Assembly (NCBI GenBank): GCA_003327425.1
Contig: QOQW01000001.1
Span: 372,001 to 436,000, forward strand
Length of the DNA: 64,000 nt
Reading direction: 5' to 3'
From: Candidatus Ozemibacter sibiricus
GTDB lineage: Bacteria; Muiribacteriota; Ozemobacteria; Ozemobacterales; Ozemobacteraceae
This document shows positions 27,095 through 31,140 of the stretch, one piece after another (within the stretch, counting starts at the first letter, position 1; each line of letters starts with the position of its first letter). Below the pieces are notes generated by a model. The model made no database searches and was not told where the DNA came from. It was given only the letters and a program-made list of their open reading frames with translations. Made by a program: the position numbers and the translations under genes.

Positions 27095-28660
27095 GTGCAG
27101 AACCGTCTGCTGACCATCATGTTCCTGGATGTTCAGGGCTATACGAAGCGGACGGCACAGGCGACGCGGGAGGAGATGACCCGCTACGTCGAAGAGATCC
27201 GGGCGTTCGTCGACAAACACATCGCCAGATTCCAGGGCACCCTGGTCAAAACCATGGGCGACGGCTTCCTGGTCTCCTTCGAGTCGCCCACCAACGCCGT
27301 GCAATGCGGGCTGGAGATGCAAAAGCAGATCCGGCTGAAGAATGCCACGCTGCCCAATCCGAACCACTACACCCATTTCCGGATCGGCATCAATACTGGT
27401 GAAGTGAGCATCGACGAAAAGGGCGACCTGTTCGGCGACCCCGTCAATATCGCGGCGCGCATCGAAAGCTTCGCCGAACCGGGCGAAGTCTTCATTTCCG
27501 AGGCCACCTACCTGGCCATGAACCGCAATGAGGTGGGCGCGGTCGATCTCGGCCCCCAGTCGTTCAAGAACGCGACCAAGGAGATCCGCATCTACAAGGT
27601 TTCGGCCGAACGGGAGGCCCGCAAAGCGGGGGGGACCAAAAGTCCCGCCGCGAGCCAGACCGCGCCACCGCCGGCCACGGGCCGGCAGGCCTGGCGCCCG
27701 CTGATCGTGGGGCTGGCGATTCTGCTGGCAGGCGGAGCCCTGTTCCTGGTCTACAAGCGGTGGGTCGCGCGCGCGGTCCGCTTGGCCACCGAACGTCCGG
27801 CGGTTGGGGGCGCGCCCAATGCGGCTCGCCGCGAGCCGTCGGCGCCTTCCGAGATGCTCGTGGGCGAGCCTTCCCCGGGGATGGAGACCGCCAGCCGGGT
27901 CGCCGCTCTTCCGGCCATGCCGCCTGGCGAGCCTCACCCCGGAGAAAGACCTCTCCCGCCTGGCATAGGTGCTCCATTACCCGGCCAAGGCCCTGGACGT
28001 CTGCCAGAGCCCTCACCCATGGGGCCTCCTCCGGCGGGGGGGCATGGCCGCTGGCCGCCGACGGCCTTCCCATCGGGATTTCCTCCGGCCGACCGCTCGC
28101 CTGGTCCGCCGCCGGGAGACCAACGGCCCTGGCCTTCTCCTCCTGGCCCCACGCCCGATGAGACTCCTCCCTTCCCCCCTCCCCAGGGGACCCCGCCGCC
28201 CTCCTCCGGCGAGGGACCGGGGCCGTGGCCTCCCGATAACACAGGCTCTGGGAGGGATTTCCCTGCGGTGGTCCTGGTCCGGTTTCCTGGGGCCAATCGG
28301 CCGCCTCCCGTGCAAGAACTCCTGGACCGGGTCGATCAAGCTGCTGCGCAGAGGAATTTCGCCGAGGCCGCCGAGTTGGTCGGCCAGGCGGCGGCTGTGG
28401 GCAGACGTCTGGGGTGGGAATTCTCGTCGCTCGATCTGGCTCGCATGGCCAAGATCATGATGCAGGCAGGATATCCCAAAAAGGCGGCAACATTGCTCGA
28501 AAAAGCGATCGAGCTGGCGCCTGGCGATCAGCCCCAGCTCCGCCATCTCCTCATCGGCATCCTCGAGCGGTTGGAACGACGAGTTCCGGGTAAAGCGGGC
28601 CCGGGGCGGCCCGGTCGGCCTCCCCTCTGGGGGTCGAGGATGGGCCCGGGCGAACGCTGA
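27095..28660 (+). CDS. class III adenylate/guanylate cyclase with a Pro-rich and TPR-like C-terminal region
   Basis: A 521-residue protein starting at GTG (27095) with GGGAGG. The cyclase domain is at the very N-terminus: FLDVQGYT and KTMGDGFLVSF carry the two metal aspartates, and DLFGDPVNIAARI carries the substrate/transition-state residues. It therefore looks active. One membrane helix (about 200-222) follows, then about 160 residues very rich in Pro/Gly, then a short helical TPR-like region (about 405-490). Most class III cyclases have the sensor before the catalytic domain; here everything beyond the membrane is C-terminal. Coupling to PBP1A suggests an envelope-sensing role, by inference. 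cAMP versus cGMP cannot be decided. Confidence 0.88.
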   Translation: MQNRLLTIMFLDVQGYTKRTAQATREEMTRYVEEIRAFVDKHIARFQGTLVKTMGDGFLVSFESPTNAVQCGLEMQKQIRLKNATLPNPNHYTHFRIGINTGEVSIDEKGDLFGDPVNIAARIESFAEPGEVFISEATYLAMNRNEVGAVDLGPQSFKNATKEIRIYKVSAEREARKAGGTKSPAASQTAPPPATGRQAWRPLIVGLAILLAGGALFLVYKRWVARAVRLATERPAVGGAPNAARREPSAPSEMLVGEPSPGMETASRVAALPAMPPGEPHPGERPLPPGIGAPLPGQGPGRLPEPSPMGPPPAGGHGRWPPTAFPSGFPPADRSPGPPPGDQRPWPSPPGPTPDETPPFPPPQGTPPPSSGEGPGPWPPDNTGSGRDFPAVVLVRFPGANRPPPVQELLDRVDQAAAQRNFAEAAELVGQAAAVGRRLGWEFSSLDLARMAKIMMQAGYPKKAATLLEKAIELAPGDQPQLRHLLIGILERLERRVPGKAGPGRPGRPPLWGSRMGPGER

Positions 28661-28882: not shown

Positions 28883-29824
28883 TCAGGACGCGGGGTCGAG
28901 GCTGGAGAAGGCCTTCATCTTCAGGCGGTCTTCGTAGGCCTTCAAAAAATCGGTGGCGACGTCTGACAGGTCGGCGAGCGTGAGGTGGTCCTCGCCCCCG
29001 AACACCTCCGGTTCCCGCGCGATCCGGATGCCGATGGTCTCGAGCAGTTCAGCGGGCACATTGAGGGAGTGGTAGCGGGGAATGTCGGCGAACCGATAGA
29101 CGGTTTCCTCGGGGGCGGTCAGGGCCAGGCGGTCGGCGGCCAATCGATAGAAGAACATGGCGGCCTCGGCGCGCCGCAACGGGGTGTTGCCCAGGTCGGC
29201 TGCCCGGGCGCCGCCCGCCGGGAGGAAATGGCGGGCTTCGATCGCCTCGCCGCGGACCTCGGTCGGATCTCCGGTGATAGGCGGACAGCCTTGCAGCAGC
29301 AGATTGCCGACCTTGACCAGGTCGTCCAGGGTGGCGGGGCGATTCATGTCCTGGGTGGCCTTCCAGGTTCCCAGGCGCGAGAAGGTGGTCTGCGCTTCCC
29401 GGCAGGCGAAGGGAGACTCGACGCGGGAAGGCGCCCATTCCGGCTGAACCCGGAGCGCTTCTGGCCGGCTCATGCCCATCGACCCGAACGCGAACAGCGC
29501 CAGGGCGGACCCGAAGAGGAAGCCGCCGCCCAGGTGTTTCAAGCGCGAACGGGTCGGCAGGGAGAACATCGCCTCCCAACGTCGGCGGAGCCGGGTGGTC
29601 AGGTGCATGCCGCTGCCGCAACCGCCGCAGAACATGGCTTGTGGCACGTTGGGGCGCCCGCAGGTGGGGCATGGCACCATGACGCGGTAGCCGCAGGACG
29701 GGCAGAGCGCAGCAGTGGAGGCGATCGGGGTTTCGCAGCGGGGACAGAAGTCGCGCACGGGTAACTCCCCTTGTCCGGTACTTCCTGAGGTTGCCGGCCC
29801 AGTGGACGGCAGGTGAGAGGTCAT
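28883..29824 (-). CDS. membrane protein with N-terminal zinc ribbons and a C-terminal SLH-like region
   Basis: A 313-residue protein. Residues 27-70 contain four CxxC pairs in two zinc-ribbon-like units (CPRC...CPSC, CPTC...CGGC), then one membrane helix (about 98-118). The outer part has two stretches resembling S-layer homology motifs: TPLRRAEAAMFFYRLA followed by FADIPRYHSLNVPAELL, and an earlier degenerate copy. SLH domains tether proteins to wall polymers. The start at 29824 follows an AGGTGA that is close to the ATG; upstream frame lacks support. It lies 133 bases downstream of hfq on the same strand. The SLH call is by eye and moderate. Confidence 0.68.
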   Translation of the reverse strand: MTSHLPSTGPATSGSTGQGELPVRDFCPRCETPIASTAALCPSCGYRVMVPCPTCGRPNVPQAMFCGGCGSGMHLTTRLRRRWEAMFSLPTRSRLKHLGGGFLFGSALALFAFGSMGMSRPEALRVQPEWAPSRVESPFACREAQTTFSRLGTWKATQDMNRPATLDDLVKVGNLLLQGCPPITGDPTEVRGEAIEARHFLPAGGARAADLGNTPLRRAEAAMFFYRLAADRLALTAPEETVYRFADIPRYHSLNVPAELLETIGIRIAREPEVFGGEDHLTLADLSDVATDFLKAYEDRLKMKAFSSLDPAS

Positions 29825-29957: not shown

Positions 29958-30431
29958 TTAGAGGGGCTTGGGGGGCTTGCGCGGCGGCGGTGGTTCGTCG
30001 TCGATCCGGATCTTCTTGCGCGGCGGTGGCGGGTCGCGCTCATCGTCGATGTACATGCGCGGCGGCGGCTTGGGAGGCCGGACGGGCATGGGCGGTTCAT
30101 CGCCAGGCGGGGCCCGGCGGGGGCGGGGCGGGGGGCCGCCCGGGCCCACGCCAGCCGCCCCGGGGAGGCGGCGCGCGCCGGCGCCCGGCCCGCCGCCGCG
30201 CGTCGCGGCGCTGGGGCGTTTGCGCTTGGGCAGAGCGGTGATGTAGAGGATCGCCGATTTGTAGATGACTTCCGATTTGTCTTTGAAATTGAGGGTGATC
30301 GAGAACTGATCGTAGCCTTTGACCTTCCCGCGGAGGGTGGTGCCCGTGTTGAGGACGACCTCGACCGGCTGGTGCTTCTTCCTGACCATCGACAGGAACA
30401 TGTTCTGGATCTGGGATTTGTATTGGGACAT
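29958..30431 (-). CDS. hfq: Hfq-like RNA-binding protein with a long Pro/Arg/Gly-rich tail
   Basis: A 157-residue protein. Residues 7-67 align well with Hfq: a Q-N-x-F-L N-terminal helix, PVEVVLNTGTTLRGKV as Sm1, the YDQFSITL strand, and Sm2 as VIYKSAI. In most Hfq the last motif is YKHA, so the conserved His is Ser here. Residues 70-157 are a low-complexity tail rich in Pro, Arg and Gly, ending in two repeated IDDE acidic patches separated by proline and basic runs. The core should form the RNA-binding hexamer; the tail is likely disordered. A GAGGAGG precedes the ATG. It follows the cNMP/chemoreceptor-tip gene by 22 bases, so the two are co-transcribed. Confidence 0.87.
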   Translation of the reverse strand: MSQYKSQIQNMFLSMVRKKHQPVEVVLNTGTTLRGKVKGYDQFSITLNFKDKSEVIYKSAILYITALPKRKRPSAATRGGGPGAGARRLPGAAGVGPGGPPPRPRRAPPGDEPPMPVRPPKPPPRMYIDDERDPPPPRKKIRIDDEPPPPRKPPKPL

Positions 30432-30453: not shown

Positions 30454-31140
30454 TTACTTCATCATGGCCAGAGCCTTGGTCTTGCTCTGGAGGGCCTTGA
30501 GCAGCTCATCGATCTTCTTGGCTTCCATGGCCGAATCCTCGGCCAGCTTCTTCATCTCGGCGGCGACCACCGAGAAGGCGGCGCCAGCCGCGCCGACACG
30601 CGCCGCTTCGATCGACGCGTTCAGCGAGAGCAGATTGCTCTTGCGGGCGATCTTGCTGATGACGCGGATGACCTCTTCCATCTGCTTGGCCGAGGCTTCG
30701 AGTTCTTTCAAAGAGACGTTGGTCTTGCGCAGGCGTTCGGTCATCATCTTCAAGATCTGGAAGGCGATCTCGGGGGTCGAGCTCAGCAAGGCCTTGAAGT
30801 CGTTCTTGGTGATGACCAGGAAGACGGTGTCCTGGACGGTGACCACCGAGGCGGAGCGCGGCATGTCGTCGATGACCGCCATGTCGCCGATGACCATTTC
30901 CTTGCCCAGCGTGGCCAGCACCGAGTCGGTGCCCGAGCTGGTTCGCTTCAAAATGTTGACCTTGCCGCTTTTGATGATGTACAGGGCGTCCCCGGGGTCG
31001 CCTTCCTTGAAGACCACCGTTTTGGCAGGAACGGCCTGCTCGACGGTGATGGCGGAGAGGTCGAGCAAGGCCTTTTCGGAAAGGCTCGTGAACAGCGAGA
31101 CCTTGCTGAGGAATTGGATTTTTTCGAGTTCGGAGGACAT
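30454..31140 (-). CDS. Crp-like cNMP-binding domain fused to a chemoreceptor signalling tip
   Basis: A 228-residue soluble protein without a DNA-binding domain. Residues 10-125 form a cyclic-nucleotide-binding barrel; the phosphate cassette reads IGDMAVI...PRSAS, with the binding arginine kept and the usual Glu as Asp. Residues 150-215 match the conserved hairpin tip of methyl-accepting chemotaxis proteins ([20 protein letters not shown], then [13 protein letters not shown]). Methylation helices and a membrane span are missing. It could link cyclic nucleotide levels to a CheA/CheW-type partner, or simply use the tip to dimerise. The start at 31140 is chosen by alignment to the barrel; the longer frame crosses the promoter. 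First gene of the hfq unit. Confidence 0.84.

Follow-up and report, generated by a model that had tools for sequence, protein, structure and literature searches.

A cyclic-nucleotide-binding domain joined to the hairpin tip of a chemoreceptor is conserved beside an hfq paralogue in the uncultured family Ozemobacteraceae

Cytoplasmic chemoreceptors of the MCP family, for example TlpD of H. pylori and FrzCD of M. xanthus, have long signalling arms with methylation regions. In Treponema denticola, CheWS, an intracellular SAM sensor with a CheR-like domain, is anchored to the array by a CheW domain (PMC10653840). A literature search limited to open-access papers yielded neither a cytoplasmic chemoreceptor with a cNMP-binding sensor nor any other described pairing of a cNMP sensor with an MCP, in agreement with the original prediction, whose author knew of no such example. 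Here we describe a gene with this pairing in a 64,000-nucleotide stretch of DNA (the window) from a Candidatus Ozemobacteraceae genome of 5.68 Mb (phylum Riflebacteria). The reading frame runs on the minus strand from an ATG at 31140 to a stop at 30454. We refer to the product as the CNBD-tip protein (CNBD, cyclic-nucleotide-binding domain). The gene and its two domains are as follows.

30454 to 31140, minus strand: CNBD-tip gene, 228 aa; cyclic-nucleotide-binding domain plus chemoreceptor hairpin tip; 21 full-length orthologues
30778 to 31038, minus strand: cNMP_binding domain (PF00027, 82.7 bits, E 1.9e-23)
30472 to 30726, minus strand: MCPsignal tip match (PF00015 positions 20-104 of 172, 85.9 bits, E 3.9e-24)

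Both Pfam matches are far above their cut-offs (27.5 bits for PF00027 and 34.6 bits for PF00015), the tip finds Tsr in the PDB (1qu7, E 1.6e-17), and the sensor half contains the motif PRSASV with the phosphate-cassette Arg. This confirms the proposed joining of a Crp-like barrel, with its binding Arg, to a chemoreceptor tip. The Pfam search returned no HAMP or further domain at meaningful score within the 228 residues, and no membrane-span-like stretch is present in the sequence. The C-terminus lies ∼40 residues beyond the turn, and the methylation helices and full-length signalling arms are missing. These absences had also been foreseen. The tip had been put at ∼60 residues; instead, ∼100 helical residues follow the sensor, arranged as two arms of ∼6 heptads each and corresponding to the tip part of PF00015 only.

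The CNBD-tip protein resembles TlpD and FrzCD in having no membrane span, in the fusion of an input region to an MCP tip and, by prediction, in sensing the cell interior. It differs from them in the shortness of its arms and in having no adaptation region. With CheWS (PMC10653840) it shares the combination of an intracellular metabolite sensor with a fused array protein, this role being a predicted one for the CNBD-tip protein; the anchor of CheWS is a CheW domain and its sensor is CheR-like, whereas here the two parts are a receptor tip and a CNBD.

Structure searches with the CNBD-tip protein gave matches to the sensor half only, the best being cAMP-bound MtbCRP and GlxR and the CNB domains of PKG and PKA. 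Two elements of the predicted ligand site could be placed on the sequence.

30844 to 30894, minus strand: phosphate-binding cassette, residues 83-99 ([17 protein letters not shown]); R95 invariant, D86 at the canonical Glu position
30718 to 30723, minus strand: T140-N141 on the C-helix; invariant (22/22), in gapless alignment with MtbCRP T134/N135

The alignment places residues 10-146 of the query on residues 4-140 of 3h3u. In M. tuberculosis CRP, T134-N135 contact the adenine of cAMP. The barrel and C-helix thus have the fold of CRP, GlxR and MtbCRP, and both R95 and T140-N141 align to cAMP contacts of MtbCRP; the differences are that the DNA-binding HTH of those proteins is replaced by a chemoreceptor tip and that most members have Asp in place of the cassette Glu. 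The cassette Arg is present in all 22 orthologous sequences, while the ribose-binding Glu position is Asp in 21 of them and Glu in one (L005). The Asp may make ligand binding weaker or change it. Because T140-N141 lie on the C-helix, the predicted ligand site falls on the very helix that continues as an arm of the tip.

We counted 53 matches to the class III cyclase domain in the window's genome, many of them in ORFs of more than 1000 aa, and 8-87 in the relatives; cyclic nucleotides are therefore likely to be present in these cells. The window itself encodes one class III cyclase that has TM and TPR regions, at 27095-28660 on the plus strand and three genes away from the CNBD-tip gene. It is not among the genes common to at least six CNBD-tip loci. 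A conserved upstream protein of 607 aa was considered as an operon cyclase and rejected, as it is GAF-GGDEF-like and not a class III cyclase.

The search for this architecture in other genomes, suggested in the original prediction, was run and found it in nearly all sampled members of the family, with no second fusion among the candidates scored in other genomes. Of the 23 other family genomes, 21 contain a full-length orthologue (71-98% identity), so that 22 of 24 Ozemobacteraceae genomes carry the gene, the two without an orthologue being only 64 and 70% complete. Since both domains and the adjoining hfq-like gene are preserved with all 21 orthologues, the fusion is not a product of chance. 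The gene belongs to the core genes of the whole family, which is uncultured. It was found in 0 of 16 genomes from other Riflebacteria families, and a profile search of 382 genomes (∼340 outside the phylum), in which at most seven candidates per genome were scored, gave CNBD relatives only and no second fusion of this type. The candidates inspected were CRP-type or CNBD-PAS-histidine-kinase-like proteins. Three seeming two-domain matches from other phyla (L023, L030 and L182) were rejected, as they are CRP-type proteins whose C-helix or HTH had aligned by chance. Since at most seven candidates per genome were scored, and since the species-wide scan for the gene relied on peptide patterns specific to the family, a CNBD-MCP fusion of independent origin may exist elsewhere.

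By profile score, the closest CNBD relatives are the family's own CNBD-PAS-histidine kinases:

L184, 1032 to 2480, plus strand, and L185, 573 to 2018, plus strand: CNBD-PAS-histidine-kinase-like proteins

They have the same GDM..D.QPRSA cassette and differ in their output, which is a PAS-histidine-kinase-like region and not an MCP tip. In one family member without the CNBD-tip gene, a 474-aa ORF (L024, from 1468, plus strand) combines a CNBD with a MinD/ParA-like ATPase in one fusion.

Within the CNBD-tip protein, conservation is by far the strongest in the tip. Among the 22 sequences, 45 of the 64 columns of residues 151-214 (70%) are invariant and the mean pairwise identity is 88.6%, compared to 28% of columns and 72.9% for the CNBD of the same sequences. 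The pairwise omega of the tip is 0.00-0.03, lower than that of the CNBD in every pair. We compared the tip, in Tsr numbering, with 56 chemoreceptor tips of Riflebacteria, one of them from another phylum. The trimer-core and turn residues that are 98-100% fixed in these MCP tips are all present in 22/22 orthologues, namely N376, L378, L380, N381, E385, A387, R388, G390, G393, F396, V398 and V399. In chemoreceptors, the trimer contacts include E385-R388' and F396 (PMC8144572), and determinants for CheA/CheW binding also reside in the tip region (PMC4692393). The turn is likewise preserved.

30583 to 30594, minus strand: predicted hairpin turn G183-A-A-G186; its two Gly are invariant (22/22) and are found in all 56 MCP tips too

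These observations lead us to what we consider the best reading, one that we would put at about an even chance: the CNBD-tip protein would be a minimal soluble, cytoplasmic, adaptation-free chemoreceptor that feeds cAMP into the CheA/CheW array.

The same comparison also revealed differences. Fixed changes have arisen in the family at near-invariant MCP positions (T375S, A389V, G395A, Q374K, A379S, A383S, V403M and A413E), the first six of which are found in nearly all 22 orthologues. The equivalents of Tsr E391 and R394 have become alanine in the window's genus and are retained in most relatives; the L012 orthologue, for one, has VGEAGRAF intact. The tip is 43-47% identical, over 72 residues, to the tips of the six MCPs encoded by the same genome. 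Judged from its sequence, the tip is a distinct, strongly selected subfamily rather than a copy of one of the genome's own MCPs. The fixed changes could reflect a coupling surface that is altered or lost. In one alternative, the protein would still bind the array, but as a modulator or decoy: with its altered tip it would cap or dilute the MCP trimers or block CheW sites in one nucleotide state, without activating CheA itself. Such a role would fit a very short protein without adaptation arms that has kept the trimer-contact core and yet carries fixed substitutions at no fewer than eight near-invariant positions, and it would fit the loss of the E391 and R394 equivalents in the window's genus. 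However, K374 and S379/S383 are likewise found in some ordinary MCPs, though in a minority of them, and we think this alternative unlikely.

The original prediction named a genome without che genes as evidence against a receptor role. The window's genome, in fact, encodes CheA, CheW, CheR and CheB together with six ordinary MCPs; there are nine CheW-domain matches, four of which belong to CheA kinase cores. CheA was found in all 20 sampled genomes that bear the CNBD-tip gene. The one sampled family genome without CheA, which is only 70% complete, is also without the CNBD-tip gene. In genomes with a single CheA, e.g. G006, G011 and G015, four ordinary MCPs accompany the CNBD-tip protein. We inspected the proximity of CheA to flagellar genes in three relatives. 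In L095, flhB-, flhA-, flhF- and flhG-like genes precede the best-conserved CheA; the flhF- and flhG-like genes were confirmed as encoding an SRP54-type GTPase and a ParA-type ATPase. L093 has the same CheA/flagellar gene order, and L094 has flagellar basal-body and hook genes near CheA. From this proximity, the predicted target is likely to be the flagellar chemotaxis array.

A kinase-less CheA-like protein with Hpt-P2-CheW organization, devoid of the dimerisation and ATPase domains, is conserved beside the core CheA:

L066, 7951 to 9753, minus strand; L094, 10915 to 12567; L095, 10355 to 11959; L093, 7952 to 9553: kinase-less CheA-like protein

The CNBD-tip gene itself is not adjacent to che genes, a point against the receptor reading. 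Its neighbours on the same strand are the following.

29958 to 30431, minus strand: hfq2, a second, divergent Hfq paralogue (PF17209, 59.8 bits; YKSA for YKHA; DPPPPRK tail motif)
28883 to 29824, minus strand: third gene of the cluster, a double-zinc-ribbon protein (PF12773) with a probable membrane span; start codon uncertain

hfq2 begins 22 bp downstream of the CNBD-tip gene and adjoins it in 22/22 loci, while the upstream genes vary between genera. We infer co-transcription from the short gap and this adjacency, and selection on the pair is clear. The adjacency to hfq, which had been proposed as a check in other genomes, is thus borne out. The neighbour had been taken for the RNA chaperone hfq; an Hfq-domain gene does adjoin the CNBD-tip gene, but it is the divergent second paralogue and not hfq proper. 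Ozemobacteraceae genomes have two Hfq matches each (cut-off 27 bits), a canonical one of 84 bits with YKHA and hfq2 of ∼60 bits with YKSA. In the window's genome, the canonical gene with YKHA is on another contig (C35:189177-189350), and hfq2 shares 37% identity with it across 54 residues. hfq2 has a long Arg/Pro-rich tail; among the 21 copies that a script captured, 19 have DPPPP[KR]K at its end. This tail end is a possible short binding motif. We also considered hfq2 as the flagellar protein FlgV and rejected this, because FlgV is a two-TM protein without the Sm fold (PMC11607428) and hfq2 scores 59.8 bits as Hfq. Relatives of the zinc-ribbon gene lie within 2 kb behind hfq2 in 19/22 loci; in some genomes the gene is on the opposite strand or behind inserted genes. 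The zinc-ribbon protein has an SLH-like end.

This neighbourhood raises a further alternative, in which the partner lies outside chemotaxis: the tip fold would have been co-opted to scaffold the Hfq paralogue, the zinc-ribbon membrane protein or some further protein, and RNA handling or an envelope function would thereby come under the control of cAMP. Strict and exclusive adjacency to hfq2 and the zinc-ribbon gene, not to che genes, speaks for it, as do the many fixed positions at which the tip deviates from MCP tips. Against this stand the MCP trimer and CheA/CheW-proximal residues that the tip has kept, as well as the presence of CheA in every sampled carrier and the joint absence of CheA and the gene from the incomplete family genome mentioned above. 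We consider this alternative rather improbable.

AlphaFold, run with 22 and with 98 sequences and without a control MCP fragment, predicted a confident barrel followed by one continuous helix over residues 123-226 rather than a hairpin, which speaks against the receptor reading. Adding the 56 MCP tips to the alignment raised the confidence and left the continuous-helix fold unchanged. A straight coiled coil would hardly explain why the turn Gly are invariant despite variation at the positions between and after them. In a plain dimerisation helix one would expect the core positions to be kept but not so many surface positions, and the conservation of both kinds in the tip argues against a mere dimerisation helix. 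Hence, the notion that the C-terminal helix is just a dimerisation coiled coil resembling an MCP tip, in a generic cAMP-binding dimer, to which the straight AlphaFold helix and a heptad pattern continuing through the tip would be congenial, appears very improbable in view of the PF00015 score, the Tsr match, the fixed surface and core positions in the most conserved part of the protein and two invariant turn Gly that a coiled coil does not need.

We therefore return to a soluble receptor that feeds cAMP into the array as the reading to be preferred. The fusion and its conservation, the preserved trimer-contact core and the co-occurrence with CheA and with class III cyclases are observed; the nucleotide binding, the hairpin fold, the array contact and the direction of signalling are what we infer. 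In this mechanism, a CRP-like dimer would bind a cyclic nucleotide, cAMP being likelier than cGMP. The nucleotide would touch the C-helix, and the same helix would continue unbroken as the descending arm of the chemoreceptor hairpin, so that nucleotide occupancy would alter the packing of the tip. The tip would bias the activity of CheA from within the CheA/CheW array, which it would probably enter by forming mixed trimers with ordinary MCPs. Lacking methylation arms, the protein would not adapt; through it, the cAMP level of the cell would determine the operating point of the array. A more specific form of this proposal, which we put forward tentatively and hold to be somewhat doubtful, is that a cAMP-gated, adaptation-free minimal receptor, with the C-helix serving as receptor arm, couples the second messenger directly to CheA within mixed trimers and has the smallest signalling tip known. 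The original prediction is, on the whole, partly supported: its main part is plausible, and its identification of the neighbour as hfq is incorrect.

If the preferred reading is true, the metabolic signal cAMP would be wired directly to the chemotaxis kinase in these bacteria, with no gene-expression step, and an array-competent receptor could be built from ∼100 helical residues without a methylation region. The CNBD-tip protein is a very small natural module with which to probe the minimal needs of a chemoreceptor. As a core gene of an uncultured family, it bears on how motility is controlled in this family, in which, by the predicted role, an internal messenger could steer swimming.
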